From: Methanomassiliicoccaceae archaeon
GTDB lineage: Archaea > Thermoplasmatota > Thermoplasmata > Methanomassiliicoccales > Methanomethylophilaceae
Assembly (NCBI GenBank): GCA_016281925.1
Contig: JAEEJP010000038.1
Span: 1 to 52,286, forward strand
Reading direction: 5' to 3'
DNA: 52,286 bases
Below are positions 1,254-46,516 of the stretch, piece after piece (position 1 is the first letter of the stretch; every line of letters starts with the position of its first letter). A program made the translations under genes and the position numbers. The notes beneath the pieces were generated by a model, which was not told the DNA's origin, made no database searches, and saw only the letters and a program-made list of their open reading frames with translations.

Positions 1254-1696
1254 GATTGTCTGCGACGTTCCATTGGGTGAGGGTTCAGACGTTCTGCTAC
1301 GCGACCGAGAGACAGGAGCTTCTCGAGGAGACCATGGCGGAACTGGTAGGGTCCGACGGTTTCACGGAGGATATCTCCGAAAGCGAGCACGGAGAGACCA
1401 TGCTCATCCTTGAGGCCCGCCTCACCAAGCAGAAGGAATACCGCGCCCTCTTCTCGAAGCTGGGGCCGGATATACAGGCGTGGATCCGGGAGGATATGCC
1501 CAACAGGATTGACGAGGACTGCATCTTCTATATGCGCCTCGACAAGCAGAAGGCTGTCCAGGGGATCTACGAGGTCGCGCATCACGGCGACGTCATCGCG
1601 ATCACCGCGAAGATCCAGTCCCATCCGGCCAGGAAGGACGTCGCCGAAGGGATCATGGCGGACTTCGTGGGCTCACTCGCCGGCGTCCCCCTCCGA
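1250..1696 (+). CDS. RNA-binding protein of the COG1325 (predicted exosome-associated) family, ending in CGA
   Basis: A 148-residue protein of the archaeal COG1325/PF01877 family, predicted RNA-binding proteins that often sit with exosome or translation genes. It matches across its length, with the typical opening (LSATFHWVRVQTFCYATE) and the ending RKDVAEGIMADF. The family is about 140-150 residues long. The frame has no TGA, TAA or TAG at the expected end; the first CGA of the gene is at 1694-1696, 24 bases inside the convergent gene. Read conventionally the frame stays open to 3106, entirely antisense to the CNNM gene, which is not credible protein. I therefore end it at CGA. Confidence 0.72.
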
Positions 1697-3343: not shown

Positions 3344-3369
3344 GAAACCTTGCCATTCCTTCCGGCGGC

Positions 3370-4194
3370 ATGATCGTGGCAGTTTCCGGCGCCGAATACC
3401 TCGGGCGTTTCTTCGATGCCGCGGATGCCGCCGAATCCGGCTGCCGCGGGTCCGTCTCCGAAGACCGGTGGCTGGCGGACAATTATTCGGGGGAGTTTCT
3501 CCCGCTCATCCGGCCGTACATCAGCGTCCGGGACGAATCCATGGCCTACGAGACCATACTTCTCCTGGCCGCCGTCAGGGAGCGCTCCGTCATGCCGGAG
3601 ATCCGGGACCTCTCCAAGAGAGGCGGCGATTCCGTCCGCATGGCCTGCGCCGCCTACATCAAGACGATGGAGGACGACGACGAGCTCATACCGAAGCTTT
3701 TCGACGGCATAGAGCACAGCGACGGCCATGTCTTCTTCAATTCCGCTTCGAAGCTGGCTAAAATCGCCCGCGCGGAGGATATGGCCCGCGTCAGACGCAC
3801 TTACGGGCAGGTCCAAGGCAGGATGCGCCTGGCCATGAAGGAGGTCATCGAAGCCATAATCCGGCGCAATCCTTCCATGTCGCAGGACGGATGGCTGTAT
3901 CTTTCGGTCCCGGTGGTTCCCGACGAGAAGTCTTTCGACAGATTCCTGACCAGATCAAAGGAATACATCGACGTCAGATACCGGAAGTCCGTGTTCCCGC
4001 GCGGCAACATCCGCGTCTCCACGTACAACAACGTCCGCGACGCCCTGATAACGATCAGGAAACGTCTGTACAACGAGGAAGAGAATCTCAGATACTATGA
4101 CATCGACAAGTCCGACCGCTTCGAAGAGCTCTCCGATCTCGCCGAATGGGCCTCCCAGGATCTTTCCGGGAAGACCGTGCTCAAAGACGATCGA
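3370..4194 (+). CDS. Hypothetical helical-repeat protein, ending in CGA
   Basis: A 274-residue soluble protein of unrecognised function. It is largely alpha-helical, with two or three HEAT-like helix pairs (for example ETILLLAAVRERSVMPEIRDL and SVRMACAAYIKTMEDDDELI). No signal peptide or membrane segment is visible. The first CGA in the gene is at 4192-4194. After it the frame has 12 more codons rich in otherwise rare ones (CGT, GTT, CAA, TTA) before TAA at 4231-4233. By analogy with the other CGA-ended genes I place the end at CGA; conventional reading gives 287 residues. Confidence 0.6.
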
Positions 4195-4561: not shown

Positions 4562-4783
4562 TCATCTTCTCTTTTTCCCTTGCATGAGGGCGGCTTGGAT
4601 ATCGTAGAGAGTGAAGAATTTCTGGAAAGAGAAGCAGATCATCAGCATCGCCAGGCCGACTATCAGAATCAGGATCCCGGGGAGCTTGGACCAGAGCAGG
4701 GCGACAGCCGCGCCGATAAGAAAGAGTGCGGCGCCGGCGGCCGCAAGATATTTGGATAGGCGGGCCCCGCCTGCCAAATCCAT
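4562..4783 (-). CDS. Two-helix small membrane protein
   Basis: A 73-residue protein with two adjoining hydrophobic helices (about residues 11-28 and 34-51) and a basic tail ending KKRR. The family is not recognised. Its ATG overlaps the CGA end of the preceding gene by one base (CGATG), the same arrangement as the common TGATG translational coupling. The stop is TGA. Confidence 0.6.
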   Translation of the reverse strand: MDLAGGARLSKYLAAAGAALFLIGAAVALLWSKLPGILILIVGLAMLMICFSFQKFFTLYDIQAALMQGKKRR

Positions 4784-5181
4784 CGGACTACCTGCGATCC
4801 GGTGAGGTTGCCGATGCCTTCGTCCCAGATGCCGATGACCCTGAACAGCCAGACGGCGGTGACTTTCATGTGCATCTTTTCCAGGTCGCGGGCCATCTTC
4901 TCCACTACGGGCCCCTCTTCGAAGCGTTCGATGGCCTCCACCTTCAGGGAGTAGGCTTCCCTGCCCTTCCAGACGAGAATCTCTGCGTTGGGATTGTTCT
5001 CGAGGTTCACAGCGGTGCGGTACATGTAGACTTCCGCCACTGCGATGGTGTCGCTGGCGGTGGCGGTGAGGCTCCCGCAGACGATGGAATGGGCCTCCCC
5101 TTCGGGGGAAACCGTGGTCAGGACTTTGTTGGTGTCCGGGTGGACGACCATCCTAAACACAGGTTCGGGCATATCTGCCAT
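4783..5181 (-). CDS. Pyridoxamine-5'-phosphate-oxidase-like flavin-binding protein, ending in CGA
   Basis: A 132-residue split-barrel protein of the PNPOx-like family, with the pattern NKVLTTVSPEGEAHSIVCGSLTA followed by NLENNPNAEILVWKG. These proteins bind FMN or F420; the substrate is unknown here. Its end is CGA at 4785-4783, sharing its last base with the ATG of the next gene. Read conventionally, the frame runs a further 38 codons inside the next gene in another frame, to 4669. The 32-residue microprotein lies 17 bases upstream, so the three genes look like one operon. Confidence 0.72.
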
Positions 5182-5802: not shown

Positions 5803-6705
5803 ATGGACGTCATCGCCGTCAAGGATCTCAGGAAGTCGTATGGAGGGAGTCCCGCCGTCGACGGGATATCGTTCTCCGTCCCGGAAGGCTCTTTCTTCGC
5901 TCTTCTGGGGCCCAACGGAGCCGGAAAATCGACGACGATCTCCATTCTGTGCTCGATTCTGAAGTGCGATTCCGGGTCCGCAGAGATATTCGGGAGAGAT
6001 GCCGCCGATCCGTCCGCCAGGCGCGACATAGGCGTGGTATTCCAGGACCCCATGATGGACAGGCTGCTGACAGTAAAAGAGAACATCTCTCTCCGCGGCG
6101 GGATGTACGGGCTCTCCGGGGACGATCTAGAAGAGGCGGCAGACAGGGCGATGCGCTCGGTCGGGATCGAGGATCTGGCCGGCAGGAAATACGGGACCCT
6201 TTCGGGGGGCCAGAGGCGCAGGGCGGACATCGCCAGGGCGCTGGTCCACGGGCCCCGCCTGCTGGTTCTGGACGAGCCCACGTCCGGACTGGATCCGGGC
6301 TCCCGCAGGCGCATATGGGACGCGGTCCTGCGCCTCAACAGGGAGGAGGGCCTCACGGTGCTCCTGACGACCCATTATCTCGAGGAGGCTGCGGGAGCGG
6401 ACGATGTCGTCATAATGGACCGCGGACGCATAGCCGCGCGCGGCACCCCGCCGGAAATCAGGGAGAGATATTCCCGGGACAGGCTGATAGCGGTCCCGAC
6501 GGATCCGGCGGCGGTCCGTTCCTATCTGGAATCCATAGGTTCAGATTTCTCCGAGGCCAATTCGTCGTTCGAAGTGGTCCTTAGCCGCACGCTGGACGCA
6601 ATCCCCATCCTTGAGGCTCTGGAAGGCAGCATATCGGCTTTCGAGGTCCGCATGGGGACTCTGGAGGACGCCTTCCTCAGGATAACTGGAGGCGGAAGGG
6701 AATGA
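5803..6705 (+). CDS. ABC transporter ATP-binding protein (DrrA-like exporter family)
   Basis: A 300-residue ATPase with Walker A GPNGAGKST (residues 37-45), the Q-loop in VVFQDP, signature LSGGQRRRADIARAL, Walker B LLVLDEP and switch His in TTHYLEEA. The C-terminal domain (220-300) is typical of DrrA/NatA-type ABC-2 exporters. It overlaps the permease gene by four bases (ATGA), so the two form a dedicated export pair. The substrate is not evident. Confidence 0.92.
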   Translation: MDVIAVKDLRKSYGGSPAVDGISFSVPEGSFFALLGPNGAGKSTTISILCSILKCDSGSAEIFGRDAADPSARRDIGVVFQDPMMDRLLTVKENISLRGGMYGLSGDDLEEAADRAMRSVGIEDLAGRKYGTLSGGQRRRADIARALVHGPRLLVLDEPTSGLDPGSRRRIWDAVLRLNREEGLTVLLTTHYLEEAAGADDVVIMDRGRIAARGTPPEIRERYSRDRLIAVPTDPAAVRSYLESIGSDFSEANSSFEVVLSRTLDAIPILEALEGSISAFEVRMGTLEDAFLRITGGGRE

Positions 6706-7559
6706 GCGGGACGATATTTCTGGCAAAAAGGAATGTCATCTGCTTCTTCCGCGACAGATCTTCGGTCGCGTTCTCCCTTATGGCCGTCATCATCCTGATC
6801 GTGCTCTACCTTCTGTTCCTCCGGGGAAACCTTCTGGAATCGAATCCAGGCATGGACGGCCTCATCGACGCGTGGGTGATGGCGGGCATCGCCGCCATAA
6901 TTCCTGTCACGGCCTCGGCCGGATGCCTCCAGACCATGGTCCAGGACAAAGCCGACGGGAGGATACGCGACATCTCGGTCACGCCCATGCGTCCGGGCGA
7001 GATCGCCGCCGGGTACATGATCAGCACCTTCGCCGTCTGCCTCATCATGAGCGCGGCCGCGCTGGCGGTGTCTATGGCATACCTCGCGGCATCCGGCTGC
7101 CCTCTTTCGGCGTCCGGCGCCGCGGTGTCGGCGGCTTTGCTGGTCCCCTCCTCCCTTTCGGGCGCTGTGATAGTGTACGCGCTCACTTCCTTCATAAGAA
7201 GCCCCGGCGCTTTCTCGGGTTTCTTCGTTTCCATAAGCGTGCTCATAGGGTTCCTGGCCGGGATCTACATGCCCATGGGGACGATGCCGGAGGCGATGCG
7301 CATAATCGGCACTCTTATGCCCGCGACGCATATGGCCTCCCTGTTCCGCGGCAGCCTGGCCGGGGACGCTCTGGAGGAGCATTTCGCCGGGGCTCCCGCA
7401 GGAATCATCGCCGATTTCCGCTCCGATATGGGGTTCGATCTCAGCCTGGGAGGCTTCGAATTCGATGCTATATCGTCTTTGGCATACGTTTTCGCCGTAT
7501 CTTTGGTATTTTTCCTGTTGGCCGCCGTCTCCACGAGGGCGGGATCCGGGCGCAGGCGA
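6702..7559 (+). CDS. ABC-2 type permease, ending in CGA
   Basis: A 285-residue membrane protein with six predicted helices and an ABC2_membrane domain. It has a long N-terminal helix with a short charged lead (LAKRNVICFFRDRS) and a last helix ending FFLLAAVSTRAGSG. It is the membrane partner of the preceding ATPase. The first and only expected end signal is CGA at 7557-7559, just after the last helix. Read conventionally the frame would add 45 low-complexity Arg/Gly/Pro-rich residues and overlap the convergent MFS gene, ending at 7697. Confidence 0.82.
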
Positions 7560-11573: not shown

Positions 11574-11642
11574 TGCCGGGGGATCCCCTCCGGTTTTTTC
11601 CCTTCCGTTATCCAGTTATATCCGCATCCCGATTCCGCGGCC

Positions 11643-12737
11643 ATGCCTTTCACGCCGGGAGAGGGCCATCTGGCCGCCGATTCATTCGTGTTTTCCCGCG
11701 GATCATTCCGCAGGGGCTATCTTATAGCCGAGAACGGGATCATCTCGGAGGAAGGGGAAGGCCCATGCCCCGAACCTGCGGACGCCAGGATAGCGCTATT
11801 CCCCGGCGCCGTCAATGCCCATACCCACTGCGCCGACTACGGGCTCGAGGTGCCGGACGGGCTCTCCATCGAAGAGCTGGTCGCCCCTCCCGACGGCCTG
11901 AAGCACAGATATCTTTCTTCGGCGCCGCCGGAGCTTCTCTCCGACCATATGCAGAGGTTCGCGGCCGATTCTTCCGCCTACGGGGCGGCCACTTTCATCG
12001 ATTTCAGGGAGGGCGGAGCGGAAGGATGCAGGCTTCTCAGGGAATCCGTCCCGGGCGCGGCGATATTCGGCCGCCCCGTTTCGGACGCATTCGATCCGGA
12101 GGAGATGGAGGCGCTGATGCTCTGGGCGGACGGGATAGGCCTTCCGAGCATCTCCGACATGCCTCCGGGATATATCGAGGACATAGCGGATTTCGCCAGG
12201 GAAAGGGGAATCCCATTGGCTATACATGCCAGCGAGAGGGTCCGCGAGGACATAGACCTCATACTGTCCCTGGATCCCGCGTTCGTCGTCCACATGTGCG
12301 AGGCCGGCGGCTCCGATTTCCTCAAATGCGCCGAAGCGGAGGTCCCCATAGTCGTCTGCCCGGGGTCCAACGCTTATTTCGGGAAGGCCCCTCCCCTGGC
12401 CCGCATGGAATCCTGCGGCGTATCCATGGCTTTGGGGACGGACAACGGCATGCTGAGGATCCCGGATCTTGCGGCCGAAGCCGGCCTTTTCGTCAGGACG
12501 ATCAGGAAGCAGGGCGGAGACCCCTCATCGGTTTTCGGCACTTTTTCTGCCCTAAATAGCAAGTTATTAAATCAGAATATTAGGATAAGCGAAGCAATCC
12601 AAGGCCAGTGCTTGGCAGTCCCGTTCGAAGGCGAGCCTTCCGCGGAGAACATATTCCGCGCGGGTGCCCCAGGCTTTCCCTTGACAAGAAAAAGAAGTGG
12701 ATTATATGGAGTTCAAGAATATACTCGTGCCCACTGA
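11643..12737 (+). CDS. Amidohydrolase-family metal-dependent hydrolase
   Basis: A 364-residue protein with the metal-binding NAHTHCAD motif (about residue 58), a later LAIHASE His, VVHMCEA, and the catalytic Asp in LGTDNGML, in the order of the TRZ/ATZ-SsnA amidohydrolases. Possible reactions are deamination or hydrolysis of a ring nitrogen compound; the substrate is unclear. The 3' end overlaps the UspA gene by 32 bases, and an A/T-rich stretch at 12558-12582 inside it may be the promoter for the following genes. Confidence 0.8.
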   Translation: MPFTPGEGHLAADSFVFSRGSFRRGYLIAENGIISEEGEGPCPEPADARIALFPGAVNAHTHCADYGLEVPDGLSIEELVAPPDGLKHRYLSSAPPELLSDHMQRFAADSSAYGAATFIDFREGGAEGCRLLRESVPGAAIFGRPVSDAFDPEEMEALMLWADGIGLPSISDMPPGYIEDIADFARERGIPLAIHASERVREDIDLILSLDPAFVVHMCEAGGSDFLKCAEAEVPIVVCPGSNAYFGKAPPLARMESCGVSMALGTDNGMLRIPDLAAEAGLFVRTIRKQGGDPSSVFGTFSALNSKLLNQNIRISEAIQGQCLAVPFEGEPSAENIFRAGAPGFPLTRKRSGLYGVQEYTRAH

Positions 12738-24362: not shown

Positions 24363-24369
24363 CATCGGG

Positions 24370-24394
24370 TGCCGGTTCCGGCCGGCATCCTTTT
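24370..24394 (+). terminator. Hairpin terminator after valS
   Basis: TGCCGG (24370-24375) pairs with CCGGCA (24382-24387), followed by CCTTTT, seven bases after the TGA and just upstream of the next start. Confidence 0.45.
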
Positions 24395-24398
24395 CCCT

Positions 24399-25154
24399 AT
24401 GATATTCTGCTTCTCCGCCACAGGCAATTCCCTTTATTTCGCCCGCAAGATATCTGAGGCGGATGGTAGCACTATAGTCCATATGGACCGCTGCCTCAGA
24501 GAAGACGATCTGTCGTTCCGCGTGCCTCCGGGAGAGTCCCTGGGCTTCGTGTTCCCGGTGTATTTCTCCGGGCTTCCCACTATAGTCTCCGACTTTCTGG
24601 GCAGAGCCGAGATAACGACCGATCCCGGGACGTATGTTTATGTTGCAGTCACCTGCGGGTCATCCCCCGGTGACGCCGGAGGCATGGCGGCCAGGATCCT
24701 TTCCGGTAAAGGCATCGGCGTATCCGGAATGTTTCGCGCGGTCATGCCGCATACCTGGACGCCTCTGCACGATCTCTCAGACAAGAAGAGGATAGAGAAG
24801 GTTCTGGCCGGGGCCGAGCCGCAAATCGCGGACGCCGCCGAAGGGATCGCATCCCGCCGCAGATGCAGGATGCCGGACGCCACGTCGAAGATCATGGCAA
24901 AGCCGCTCTATGCGATCTACGGGATGCAGAGGACCAAGCTGTTCTGGGTCACCGATCTGTGCGACGGGTGCGGCGAATGCAGGAGGATCTGCCCCGTGCG
25001 CGCGATTAGGATGGAGAACAGGAGGCCGGTGATAGTCCCCGACAGGTGCCCGATGTGCCTGGCGTGCCTGCACAGGTGCCCCATGTTCGCCATCCAGTAC
25101 GGGAAAGCCACTATAGTGCACGGGCGCTATACGCACCCCGATTCAGGGCTGCGA
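24399..25154 (+). CDS. EFR1-type flavodoxin-ferredoxin protein, ending in CGA
   Basis: A 251-residue protein: N-terminal flavodoxin-like domain with FSATGNSLYFA, and a C-terminal 2x[4Fe-4S] ferredoxin with CDGCGECRRICP and CPMCLACLHRCP, then QYGK and a short GRY tail, exactly the EFR1 family layout and length. It probably transfers electrons between ferredoxin and a flavin. No TGA, TAA or TAG closes the frame here. The first CGA is at 25152-25154, 12 bases inside the convergent gene; conventional reading would run to 26825, antisense to that gene. Confidence 0.8.
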
Positions 25155-32204: not shown

Positions 32205-33728
32205 ATGGCATCCTTCGAGGAATTAGGCATCAACAAACGGCTGTGCAGAGCCATCGCAGAGATGGGATGGACAGAGCCGACTCCGATCCAGCTTCAGGCA
32301 GTGCCTGTGGGCATGTCTGGCAAGGACATGTTCGGGCAGGCTCAGACCGGAACAGGCAAGACCGGAGCATTCTCAATGGTCGCAATAGGGCGTACCAAAT
32401 CCGGTTCCCAGGTGCCTTCCGTCCTGGTTATGGCCCCGACCAGGGAACTGGCCGTTCAGATATCGAAGGAGATGTCAAACATCTCGAAGTACACCCGCCA
32501 TTCGATAGTGGCTGTCTATGGCGGCGCATCATACGTCGAGCAGATAAAAGGCTTGGAATCTGGGTGCGACATCGTAGTCGGGACTCCCGGAAGGATCATA
32601 GATCTCTGCAAAAGAGGGAATCTGAAATTGGATTCGGTAAGGGAGCTTGTAATAGACGAAGCCGACAGGATGTTGGACATGGGATTCATCGACGACATGG
32701 ATGAGATAATATCTATGGTTCCTTCGCACAGACAGACCATGATGTTTTCGGCGACACTTTCCGATGAAGTCCGTTCAATCGCCGAGCGTTCGATGAAAGA
32801 GCCCGCAGAAATATCCGTCTCACACGACTCTCTTGTCCCGGAGCTTGTGCGCCAGTATTACATCGAAGTGAAAAGGAACGGAAAAATGGACGTTCTCCGC
32901 GATATAATGGCGAATGGCGATCCTAAGATGGTCATATTCTGTTCCACCAAGAAAATGGTCGACGATCTCTATGAAGGTCTGAGCAAAGAAGGCCTACGCA
33001 TCGGAGCAATACACGGGGATATGCCGCAGTCCCGCAGGGAGAAGACCATACGCAGTTTCAAAGCCGACAAGATGAACATGCTCATCGCTACCGATGTTGC
33101 GGCCAGAGGCCTTGACATAGACAACATAGAATGCGTCGTGAACTATGATGCGCCTCTCGATCCCGAGACTTACGCCCATCGCATCGGCCGCACGGGAAGG
33201 GCCGGAAGAGAAGGGGTGTCATTCACATTCATCACTCCCAAGGAGGATCTCAGGATACCCGCTTACCAGGAGTTCATGGGAAAGTCGGTAGAGCGCGTCA
33301 CCAGAAAGCAGATCGCCAAACTGCAGATAGCCAACCCCGAACTGAAAGCGCTGCATGGAACGAAAAGCATACAGGATGCCGCGGCCAAGGACAAGCGCCA
33401 TGCGCCGCCCTCCCGCAGCGGACCCAATCCCAAAAACGAGGGCCCGGCCGCCCCCGAGTTCGCTGTGATTGCCTTGGACATACCCAAAAGTTCCGAGATA
33501 AACCGCACGGACATCGCCGAATACATCGCCCTTTCGTCAGGCATCGGCCGCGACAAAGTCGGCCGCATAGGGATGGGGTCGCACCTCACTTTCGTCGAGG
33601 TCGAATCATCGTCGGTCGATGCGGTCATAAAAGCAGTCAACAGCACCAAGCTCAACGGGAAGAAAGTCAGGGCATCACACGCCCCCGCAAAAACAAAGTA
33701 CAAAGACAAAATCGGCAGGAAGAACCGA
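32205..33728 (+). CDS. DEAD-box RNA helicase, CsdA/DbpA-like, ending in CGA
   Basis: A 507-residue helicase with all motifs (AQTGTGKTGA, PTRELA, DEAD, SAT, RGLDID, HRIGRTGRAG) and a C-terminal RNA-binding domain (about 415-500) after a Pro-rich linker, related to the helicase at 27745. The first CGA is at 33726-33728 after a basic tail (KDKIGRKN). A hairpin GGCGG-GTATT-CCGCC (33732-33746) followed by T-rich DNA starts three bases later, where the next ten codons would lie before TAA at 33758. I read CGA as the stop and the hairpin as terminator. Confidence 0.82.
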
Positions 33729-38062: not shown

Positions 38063-38686
38063 ATGGCGATGTCCGATTATGATGCGCTGGCCGGGAAGGC
38101 GTCCGCGGAGATCGCCGTCAGAGGGTCCAGGTTCATAGGGGTCGCCATGCCGTGCCCCGATGAGAGCCATATCCAGGCGAACCTTGCCGCGGTGTCTGCG
38201 GAGTTCCCGGGCGCCACCCATTACTGCTACGCCGCCGTTTTCGGAGCTTCGGACAGGAATCTCCGCTTCAGCGACGGGGGCGAGCCTTCCGGGACGGCGG
38301 GGAGGCCGATCCTCAGCGTCCTCAGCGGCGCCGGGCTGTCGGATTCCATGGCCGTGGTCGTCCGCTATTTCGGAGGGACCCTTCTGGGGACCGGCGGTCT
38401 GGTCCGCGCATATTCCGAGGCGGCATCCCTCGCGCTGGGGAAGTCCGCCAAGGTCAGGAGGACGGCGTGCGCCGTGTTCGAGGTCGGGATGGGATACAGC
38501 CATTACAGCGCGTTCGAGGCCAAATGCAAAGGTTTCATGGCAAGGAAGCCGGAATGCTCCTACTCCGACAGGGTAGACGTGAAAGCCTGGGTGCCTCTGG
38601 GGGAAGCCGAGGGATTCCTGCGCAGGCTGGAAGGCATCACCGGCGGCAAAGCGCATCCGATCCGCCTCCGGGACGAGTACGTCCGA
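38063..38686 (+). CDS. yigZ: YigZ/IMPACT family protein (UPF0029), ending in CGA
   Basis: A 207-residue protein matching YigZ over its full length (E. coli YigZ is 204): FIGVAMPC near the N-terminus, the signature RFSDGGEPSGTAGRPIL, VVVRYFGGTLLGTGGLVRAYSEAA and a second ferredoxin-like domain. The role is translation- or stress-related in the IMPACT family. The first CGA is at 38684-38686, exactly where the family ends; without it the frame runs to 39805 through the ABC-F gene in another frame. This is the cleanest case for CGA as stop. Confidence 0.85.
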
Positions 38687-38723
38687 GCGAAGCATCATCT
38701 ATCAGCCGCGCTTATCGGGCCGC

Positions 38724-40535
38724 ATGCTCATCAAGGCCCAGTCGATAGCCAAGTCATTCGGCCCGGTGAAAGTCCTGACGGATGTCAGCCTCCAGATCAA
38801 CGAAGGCGATGCGATAGGCCTGATCGGGATAAACGGCGCCGGCAAGAGCACTTTCCTGAAGATACTCCTGGGGGAGATGAAGCCGGACACCGGGGAGCTC
38901 ACCCGCTATACCGAGAGGATAGGCTATCTGGAGCAGTTCGCCGAATCGTCGGCGGAATTCACCGTCCGCGACGTGCTGGGGAGGCCGTACGGGCACATCG
39001 AGAATCTGAAGCGCCGCCTGGCGGAGATAGAGGCCGAGATGGCGTCCGGCGGCGACATAGACTGGAACGCCCTGGCGGAAGAGAGCGCCATGCTGGAATC
39101 CATGCTGTCGAAATCCGATGCCGACGACGAGGGAAATCAGAGGGCCGCGCTGGAAAAGGTGGGTCTGAGCTGGGATTTCGCAGACAGGACCATGGATTCC
39201 CTTTCCGGAGGGGAGAGGGCCAAAGTGATGCTCTCCCGCATAGTCGTCCAGGCCGACGACTGCGATCTTCTCGTGATGGACGAGCCAACCTCCCATCTGG
39301 ACATAAACACTGTGGAGTGGCTGGAGGACTATCTTCTGAAGACCCGCTGCGCCGTGCTGGTCATCAGCCACGACAGGTATTTCCTGGACAAGATCGCGAC
39401 GCGCATGCTGGAGATTTCCAACGGGAAATCCAGGGAGTACAAGGGCAACTATTCCGATTTCATCATGAAGAAGATGCTGGACCTGGACCGGATGGAGAAG
39501 GAGTACAGGAAATACTCCTCCCAGAAGAGGAAGCAGGAAGAGATCGCCAGGGAGCTCCACCGCGACCAGTGGTTCATGACCACCCACAAGACCAGGGAGA
39601 AGATGATCGCCAAGATGGAGGAGAAGGAGAAGCCGGAGGAGAGCAGGGAGATCTCGGTCAGAATCCAGACCGCCCGCAAATCCGGCAAGAACGTCCTCAC
39701 GGCGAAGGATCTTTCCGTTTCCATAGGCGGGAAGAAGATACTGGAGCATGTCGACCTGGACATACAGAAAGGCGACAGGATCGGGGTCTTCGGGTCCAAC
39801 GGTGAAGGGAAAACCACCCTGATAAAGGCGCTGCTGGAGCAGATCCCGTCCGAAGGGGAGCTTTGGACGGCTCCCGGCGCCAAGATAGGGTACTATTCCC
39901 AGCATCACGACAGCCTGGACAAGAGGCTCACCGCCGAGGAGCAGCTCCTGCAGCTCATAGGCAAGGAGAGGAGGGGCGAGGCCCGCTCGATGCTGGCAAG
40001 GTTCCTTCTGACCGGCGACGATGTGGACCGCCCGATATCCACGCTTTCCGGCGGGCAGAGGGCGAGGGTGGCGATGTGCCTGCTGCTTCTGAGCGAGACC
40101 AACCTTCTGGTGCTCGACGAGCCGACGAATTATATGGACATCCCCGCGAAGCATGCGATAGAGGAGGCTCTGAACGAATACGGCGGGACGCTGATAGCCG
40201 TCACCCACGACAGGTATTTCCTGGACACCGTCTGCACCAGCGTGATCGAGGTCGCAGGCGGCCGCATCAAACTGTTCGCAGGGACGTATTCGGAGATGAA
40301 AGGCCGCCCCAACGTCAGGGAGGTGGTCATGGACGCCGACGAATACAGGGTCCTGTCCCCGTTCACCAACTGGACGACCGGCCGCAGATACGCCAAAGGC
40401 GACCGGGTGCTGATTGCCCCCGCCGAGCAGAAGAGCTTCGAATGGGCCCTCGGCCAGGGGAAGCTCAGGAAGACCGGCGGGCGCCAGAGGAAGAAGGTGG
40501 ATGTCGCCGAAACCCCGCCGAAAGACGGTTTCTGA
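38724..40535 (+). CDS. ABC-F family ATPase (translation factor type)
   Basis: A 603-residue protein with two ABC domains and no membrane part: first Walker A GINGAGKST, signature LSGGERAKVML, Walker B LLVMDEPTSHLD; linker 240-320 rich in Lys/Glu (the P-site tRNA interaction motif); second Walker A GSNGEGKTT, LSGGQRARVAM, LLVLDEPTNYMD. The C-terminal extension of about 80 residues ends in basic residues. ABC-F proteins bind the ribosome and relieve stalling. The start lies 37 bases after the YigZ CGA; probably one operon. Confidence 0.93.
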   Translation: MLIKAQSIAKSFGPVKVLTDVSLQINEGDAIGLIGINGAGKSTFLKILLGEMKPDTGELTRYTERIGYLEQFAESSAEFTVRDVLGRPYGHIENLKRRLAEIEAEMASGGDIDWNALAEESAMLESMLSKSDADDEGNQRAALEKVGLSWDFADRTMDSLSGGERAKVMLSRIVVQADDCDLLVMDEPTSHLDINTVEWLEDYLLKTRCAVLVISHDRYFLDKIATRMLEISNGKSREYKGNYSDFIMKKMLDLDRMEKEYRKYSSQKRKQEEIARELHRDQWFMTTHKTREKMIAKMEEKEKPEESREISVRIQTARKSGKNVLTAKDLSVSIGGKKILEHVDLDIQKGDRIGVFGSNGEGKTTLIKALLEQIPSEGELWTAPGAKIGYYSQHHDSLDKRLTAEEQLLQLIGKERRGEARSMLARFLLTGDDVDRPISTLSGGQRARVAMCLLLLSETNLLVLDEPTNYMDIPAKHAIEEALNEYGGTLIAVTHDRYFLDTVCTSVIEVAGGRIKLFAGTYSEMKGRPNVREVVMDADEYRVLSPFTNWTTGRRYAKGDRVLIAPAEQKSFEWALGQGKLRKTGGRQRKKVDVAETPPKDGF

Positions 40536-45727: not shown

Positions 45728-46516
45728 ATGCGCGTCTATTCCGGAGGGGGATTCGCCGAGCGCGCCGCGGCGGAAAGATTCATCGAGGAGGCAGCGGCGA
45801 AGAAGGCCGGCGTCACGGCCGAGTATTGCGGCGACCGCCCCGATCAGTTGGGCTAGGACGAAGTTTCCGTATGCATGCTCAGAAATCTTCCGCCAAGATT
45901 GGATGGCGGTCTGGCGGTGGCAGCCATGATGGAGCGCGGGAGCAGAGCGTATGCCGCGTTCCCATCCGCGTTGGAGGATCTGCCGCCCGGTTCTTCGGTG
46001 TCGGTATGCGTGCCCATAGCCGCCCGCATTCTGGCGGAATCCTTCCCCGGACTGGAATTCATCCTGGAGCAGCGCCCGGAAACATGTCTGGAAGATGCCG
46101 CCGAGGGCAGATCCGCGTCCGCCATAGTCCCCGAGGAGGAATTCAGGCTGTCCTTTCCGGATGCCGGATGCGAAATTCTCGAAGGCATCATGCCTGCCGC
46201 CTCCCAAGGGATAATCGCCGCCGTATGCAGAGCGGACTGCTGCCGCGCGAAAGAGTGGGCCTCTTCCGTGAACCATATGCCCACGCGCATAGAGGCGGGA
46301 GCGGAGAGAGGTATCATGAAGCTCATGGGCGCCGGACCGTCCGCGATGGTAGGGGTGTCTGCCGAGACGGATGACATCTTCGTCCGCATCCGCGCAGCTT
46401 CGTATGTCACCGGGGAGATCCGGGAAGCCGACGAATATGTCCAGGCGGATTACGTGATGGATGACCTTCTGGGCATCGCGGAGTATCTGGACGGGAAGCG
46501 CGGCGAAGTGATCCGA
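45728..46516 (+). CDS. Degenerate hydroxymethylbilane synthase-like protein with in-frame TAG, ending in CGA
   Basis: A 262-residue protein if TAG at 45854-45856 (codon 43) is read through. It aligns with HMBS (HemC) along its length: VCMLRNLPPRLDGGLAVAAM corresponds to VHSxKDLPxxL, and PAASQG, CRAD and IEAGAERGIMKLM to the usual sites. But the catalytic Asp (KD) is Asn, the cofactor-binding Cys loop (GGCQVPIG) is GAGPSAMVG, the GTSSLRR motif is gone and about 40 residues before the KD site are missing. It cannot be a normal HMBS. The first CGA is at 46514-46516; the conventional end is 46540. Confidence 0.6.
45854..45856 (+). other. In-frame TAG, probable pyrrolysine codon 43 of the HMBS-like gene
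   Basis: TAG sits between DRPDQLG and DEVSVCM. The frame is HMBS-like on both sides and starts with ATG 45728 after a GGAG. A conventional reading would start at ATG 45875 and lose the N-terminal strand. Confidence 0.55.

Follow-up and report, generated by a model that had tools for sequence, protein, structure and literature searches.

A yigZ gene that ends at CGA

The stretch of DNA considered here is a contig of 52,286 nucleotides (JAEEJP010000038.1 of assembly GCA_016281925.1; G000:C61 in our numbering of genomes and contigs, hereafter the window), and its yigZ gene lacks a standard stop codon where the conserved protein ends. G000 is a metagenome-assembled genome (MAG) of Methanomethylophilaceae (Methanomassiliicoccales), 1.96 Mb in 122 contigs and 85.9% complete; those of its relatives that bear a name are Candidatus Methanomethylophilaceae archaea and come from the guts of ruminants. 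With frames read under translation table 11, the yigZ frame runs from the ATG at 38063 to a TGA at 39803-39805, a total of 580 codons with no earlier TAA, TAG or TGA. The yigZ gene (IMPACT/UPF0029 family) takes up the first 207 of these codons (38063..38683, plus strand) and is followed at codon 208 by a CGA (38684..38686, plus strand) that would act as its stop. The rest of the frame (38687..39805, plus strand) lies mostly inside the next gene, read in another frame. This downstream gene (38724..40535, plus strand) encodes an ABC-F ATPase of 603 aa (NF000355, 7.7e-135), ends with TGA, and starts in the +1 frame relative to yigZ, 37 bases past the CGA. A sequence-only reading of the window had already proposed that yigZ closes at this CGA with family length, that its frame otherwise stays open through the ABC-F gene, and that the latter starts at this spacing, and the analysis below bears out each of these points.

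The protein of 207 aa has the length of the UPF0029 family. PF01205 matches residues 20-125 (2.1e-32; 111.7 bits, above the cut-off of 27), and TIGR00257 matches residues 12-196 (2.6e-43; 147.9 bits, below its cut-off of 167.95). According to a codon-usage model (self-trained codon scoring), the coding signal of the yigZ frame stops exactly at 38683, the base before the CGA, and the open continuation is without coding signal and unconserved between species. A search of all 31 genomes of the genus gave a yigZ match in 30. The test proposed with that reading, whether homologues have TGA or TAA at this position, came out in its favour: the sister genome G029 (79% identity) reads GTA TGA at codon 208, and ten outgroup copies, eight of them with the residues EYI, likewise close with TGA there. 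Codon 208 is CGA in five other species as well (G001, G004, G008, G021, and G022), and in G009 a CGA stands at the gene's own family end, near codon 208. No conserved extension, which would have spoken for a longer protein, was seen among these copies; the tails after the CGA are unrelated and vary from species to species in both sequence and length, with 0 of 20 residues in common between the window and G021. In G001 and G004 the yigZ frame continues into the ABC-F gene as it does in the window, and several relatives also carry an ABC-F gene directly downstream of yigZ, as judged by reading. A long open +1 frame within a GC-rich gene is unremarkable alone; the absent stop at the end of a conserved protein is what is remarkable.

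Two other roles for this CGA were considered and dropped. A +1 frameshift at the codon could produce a YigZ-ABC-F fusion in G000, but in G001 the shifted frame runs into a stop 6 codons on, and in other species it falls short of the ABC-F gene. Retention of the CGA as a promoter element of the ABC-F gene was abandoned once CGA ends had been found genome-wide. The 37-base spacer (38687-38723) is itself partly conserved (CGAnCGAA..CATCATCTATC) and by eye resembles a candidate promoter with B recognition element (BRE) and TATA box for a leaderless ABC-F transcript. The ABC-F orthologue of G029 (L231) ends CAG CGA GGA TAA where G000 has TTC TGA, a CGA stop in the opposite direction. Separately, the yigZ genes of L030 (G046), L197 (G006), and L039 contain an in-frame TAG, which may reflect pyrrolysine or a pseudogene.

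CGA at the ends of genes

For a view beyond yigZ we sampled genome-wide sequence from G000 (~400 kb), G021 (~390 kb), and G029 (~740 kb), together with 4-40 kb each from ~36 more genomes. In a partial comparison of G000 with G029, the G000 codons aligned to standard stops of G029 were TGA in 154 cases, CGA in 20, TAA in 10, and TAG in 3. The next sense codon, GGA, occurred 4 times and no other sense codon exceeded that number, while TGG, the other sense codon that is one transition away from TGA, was not found at all. If CGA behaved as an average sense codon, 20 such cases would have a probability of ~6e-23. Over the whole genus the codons at orthologue stops were TGA (474), CGA (40), and TAA (23), with 11 for the next sense codon; outside the genus there were 0 CGA in a small sample of 50 ends. 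Seen from the other side, the orthologues of other species at CGA ends carried CGA 37 times, TGA 29 times, and AGA, the next codon, 7 times. Typical pairs are GAC GAT TTC TGA with GAT GAC TTC CGA, and GGG TAC GAA TGA with GGA TAT GAG CGA. Where both orthologues end at CGA, amino-acid identity is 82% before the codon versus 44% after it, and part of this residual 44% comes from tails that overlie other conserved genes. The proposal made for yigZ thus extends beyond that gene and holds across the genome and the genus.

Counted strictly, CGA-ended genes make up 36 of 268 (13%) in G000, 51 of 268 (19%) in G021, and 26 of 416 (6%) in G029. Smaller samples gave 6/32 in G001, 7/28 in G026, 3/13 in G009, and 8/15 in G028; counts in most members of the genus rest on 7-40 kb apiece. 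The G028 sample (L296; G028:C35:46000-65999, 20 kb) has CGA as its commonest stop, and the eight genes concerned include that species' gene for the release factor aRF1. In L174, two convergent genes both end at CGA only 6 bases apart, and their frames, otherwise open for 219 and 168 codons, run into each other. The base at position +4 is T after 57 of 113 CGA stops (50%) versus 215 of 780 TGA stops (28%; P 2e-6). When CGA was scored as a stop, 100.0% (G000) and 100.2% (G021) of the coding score was retained, the best value among 61 codons; this test is supporting only, since for other rare codons, such as TTA and CAA, the loss of score is small as well. Self-training per genome caught antisense frames in G008, G015, G020, and G032, and those rows were ignored. 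Rerunning the codon scoring with arginine codons set neutral, as a check on a bias toward CGA ends, blurred the ends, and the case for a CGA stop therefore rests on the orthologue tests.

CGA within genes and the arginine tRNAs

CGA is strongly depleted inside the genes of the genus. In alignments away from gene ends we counted 25 interior CGA in 320,435 aligned codons, or 0.14% of arginine codons, versus 34 in 28,680 codons (2.2%) outside the genus (P 4e-22). Fourteen of the 25 are one and the same site, codon 68 of the aRF1 gene, which is the only conserved interior CGA in the genus, and most of the others sit in misaligned stretches beyond a CGA end. Sister genera are sparing with CGA too (1/319 in G034 and 0/203 in G051), so the rarity of the codon alone is no proof of reassignment. 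A lone interior CGA at L175:6147 (minus strand) faces GGA in G029, in a gene that is otherwise 95% identical, and may be an error or a recent mutation.

The genus possesses tRNA-Arg(CCG), confirmed with ARAGORN in G007 and G011, and tRNA-Arg(GCG), so that CGG, CGC, and CGU are covered. In tRNA-Arg(UCG), the anticodon-stem pair 31:39 is A-A or C-A in every copy read from the genus, whereas it is intact in all 10 copies read outside it; for G049 the pair was taken directly from the sequence TTCGGC CTTCGGA GCCGAA, as the script row was mis-anchored. Similarity searches found no tRNA-Arg(UCG) in G003, G007, G009, G012, G013, G016, G017, G019, G023, G025, G028, and G030, the best match in such species being tRNA-Arg(GCG). 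Of these genomes, G007 and G030 are each assembled into a single contig; completeness is only 66% for G017. In G009, which otherwise seems to be without the gene, 77 bases at G009:C38:105622-105698 are 74% identical to tRNA-Arg(UCG). Altogether, tRNA-Arg(UCG) appears to be either impaired through the broken 31:39 pair or lost across the genus, and a loss of function is predicted. An earlier version of this idea, in which CGA was unassigned for want of a tRNA, does not hold for G000, where a tRNA-Arg(UCG) gene is present, and it became one of a tRNA that is damaged or lost.

The release factor and its in-frame CGA

Each genome has one aRF1 gene, plus weaker Pelota-like matches. In the aRF1 tree the genus is monophyletic with a support of 100/100 and a stem branch of 0.24. 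All 23 aRF1 sequences of the genus that were compared carry two substitutions beside the NIKS motif, Y/F43Q and S46A, which turn ...E[Y/F]SQSSNIKS... into EQSQASNIKS. These positions correspond to F56 and A59 of human eRF1 and adjoin E55, a residue implicated in stop-codon reading (PMC4698671). We regard Q43 and A46 as a lead, not as proof, for a reading of CGA by this factor.

Codon 68 of aRF1 (numbered within an aligned stretch of 399 codons) encodes a conserved arginine and is CGA in 25 of the 26 genus genomes in which the stretch is present. In seven of seven genomes from sister genera it is CGC, AGG, or AGA, never CGA. The context in the genus is always [G/T]CT CGA CTN, with C as the +4 base at every site, and all 25 genomes have T as the third base of codon 67, although T is rare at third positions (9% in G000). 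The lone exception is G028, which has CGC at codon 68, no tRNA-Arg(UCG) that we could find, and CGA as the commonest stop in its sample. The frame is unchanged across the CGA, and thus there is no prfB-type +1 frameshift site. A codon that accounts for 0.14% of arginine elsewhere is thus nearly fixed in the gene of its expected reader. By analogy with prfB (PMC13245932) we infer that it probably serves autoregulation of the release factor by negative feedback, with termination at codon 68 and read-through otherwise. T at +4 is reported to lower read-through in E. coli and yeast (PMC5289835). The preference for +4 T at CGA stops, set beside the +4 C of the aRF1 site, agrees with a leaky CGA at codon 68.

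Other genes in the window that end at CGA

Seven further genes of the window behave like yigZ. The gene at 1250-1693 for an RNA-binding protein (PF01877, Pfam) ends at the CGA at 1694..1696 (plus strand), where its G029 orthologue has TGA; the next standard stop lies 470 codons beyond. A gene with coding signal over 3361-4191 is closed by CGA at 4192..4194 (plus strand), with GAC GAT CGA in both G000 and G029 and unrelated tails. The PNPOx-like gene on the minus strand (4786-5181) has its CGA at 4783..4785 (minus strand), with GTC CGA versus ATC TGA in G029. For the ferredoxin-domain gene (24369-25151; CGA at 25152..25154, plus strand) the corresponding codons are CTG CGA versus TTA TGA, and the frame is otherwise open for 557 codons across two minus-strand genes. 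In the DEAD-box helicase gene (32205-33725; CGA at 33726..33728, plus strand) the DbpA domain extends to residue 491 of the 507-residue protein, and CGA is shared by G000 and G029 with tails that are 5% identical. The gene at 45875-46513 ends GAA GTG ATC CGA (CGA at 46514..46516, plus strand), versus GAA GTG ATC TGA in G029. A weaker case is the ABC-2 transporter gene (6702-7556), whose CGA at 7557..7559 (plus strand) is a probable stop: the matches to ABC2 families reach no further than residue 276 of 285, and the coding signal drops 28 codons before the CGA.

Elsewhere in the window, a gene of 1472 codons at 40728-45146 matches no Pfam family and has a coding signal that is strong. At 11631-12737 the coding signal ends ~71 codons before the TGA with no CGA at the break, which may indicate a frameshift or an unusual C-terminus.

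Discussion

Our data, all of them from sequence, make it very probable that CGA was reassigned from sense to stop in this genus, where it is used beside TGA, TAA, and TAG. The fuller view also seems likely to us, namely that CGA is a fourth stop codon which aRF1 would read while tRNA-Arg(UCG) decays, with CGA-ended genes ranging from few or none to about half and with aRF1 regulating itself through a leaky CGA. It is part of this joint view, and to be held with the same good confidence, that the autoregulatory CGA would be possible only through the reassignment. As to the order of events, CGA may first have become very rare as an arginine codon in the family. tRNA-Arg(UCG) would then have decayed through the broken 31:39 pair or been lost, tRNA-Arg(CCG) and tRNA-Arg(GCG) being kept to read CGG, CGC, and CGU, after which an aRF1 whose codon-reading domain had acquired genus-specific changes beside NIKS would have come to accept CGA in addition to UGA. 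Drift through single transitions could subsequently have turned TGA stops into CGA and so produced gene ends like that of yigZ. When aRF1 is abundant, its own synthesis would be terminated at the leaky CGA of codon 68 with its +4 C, and when it is scarce, a near-cognate or weakened tRNA would insert arginine there.

Several observations weigh against this interpretation. The tRNA-Arg(UCG) gene is kept in ~18 species of the genus and is still recognized as a tRNA by ARAGORN, and the CGA at codon 68 of aRF1 must sometimes be decoded as an amino acid. Because A46 also occurs in the aRF1 of Halobacterium and the long stem branch (0.24) holds many genus-specific substitutions, no single causal residue can be singled out. 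In addition, samples of 7-40 kb each from G005, G010, G014, G015, G016, G018, G020, G024, and G027 contained no CGA-ended gene, and the use of CGA to end genes may not extend to the whole genus.

The main rival is that a C-to-U deaminase edits CGA to UGA in the mRNA, so that an ordinary aRF1 stops there and the code is unchanged. Each CGA end is indeed one C-to-U step from UGA, and editing would account for gene ends and interior avoidance alike. However, it gives no reason for tRNA-Arg(UCG) to be damaged or lost in this genus specifically, and it needs an editor that acts on CGA everywhere while at least partly sparing codon 68 of aRF1. We are aware of no such mRNA editing in archaea, which also counts against the idea, and we consider it improbable. 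Similarly unlikely is that CGA is unassigned and that ribosomes stall at it and are rescued by a Pelota-like factor instead of truly terminating, as might be imagined for the ~12 species in which tRNA-Arg(UCG) was not found. CGA-ended genes are many and conserved, and CGA is the commonest end in the G028 sample; moreover, both the preference for T at +4 and the CGA within the aRF1 frame point to the release factor. That CGA still means arginine, the genes having lost their stops and gained long non-functional tails, is very improbable and already contradicted. The tRNA-Arg(UCG) genes of many members and the conserved arginine at codon 68 of aRF1 would fit it, but lost stops should scatter across codons, whereas CGA is far in excess at gene ends and near-absent within genes, and the tails run for up to 557 codons over other genes with no coding signal or conservation. 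That the yigZ gene of the window alone is a pseudogene or was wrongly sequenced or assembled, conceivable in a MAG that is 86% complete, has a negligible probability, as independent genomes contradict it with the same yigZ CGA in five other species and dozens of genes across several assemblies behave alike.

AGA and AGG have changed from sense to stop in vertebrate mitochondria. Such sense-to-stop changes are rare and have been described in mitochondria, among them UCA and UCG in those of sphaeroplealean green algae (PMC6821328). As in the mitochondrial cases, the codon studied here all but disappears from gene interiors and serves at gene ends, its cognate tRNA is abnormal or absent, and changes in the release factor go with this. 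Those cases concern small organelle genomes with a bacterial-type release factor; here the genome is a cellular archaeal one of ~2 Mb with a single omnipotent aRF1, the codon is CGA, and the share of genes that it ends ranges across species from zero in the samples to around one half. In bacteria, CGA has been reassigned to tryptophan (PMC8629427). The CGA and CGG cases of that Codetta study resemble ours in that the same rare arginine codons shift in meaning and tRNA(UCG) is involved, but they are sense-to-sense changes (to tryptophan or glutamine) in low-GC bacteria (0.26-0.38), in contrast to a sense-to-stop change in archaea of 0.52-0.63 GC. The Codetta screen, as we read it, infers amino-acid meanings and not stops. 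The in-frame CGA of aRF1 would resemble the case of prfB (RF2), where a conserved early stop in a release-factor gene is read by its own product and has been lost in some lineages (PMC13245932); prfB uses UGA and a +1 frameshift, whereas at the CGA of aRF1 the frame is unchanged and read-through would yield arginine. Finally, tRNAs with a 4-bp anticodon stem have also lost the last pair of that stem in connection with a code change (PMC13092985), although in that case tRNA-Trp(CCA) gains the reading of UGA, while tRNA-Arg(UCG) here seems to lose its role.

In the open-licence literature we found no report of a CGA stop or of such a code in Methanomassiliicoccales, and the sense-to-stop changes in the papers we found are all mitochondrial. 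In these gut methanogens, gene calls made under table 11 extend proteins falsely at the C-terminus, by up to hundreds of residues, and may overlook some short genes. The genus displays the stages of the change side by side, from a rare CGA through a damaged and then a lost tRNA to one species whose sample has CGA as its most frequent stop. This opens to test how an omnipotent archaeal release factor may gain a codon that begins with C, and how the release factor would be kept in balance meanwhile.
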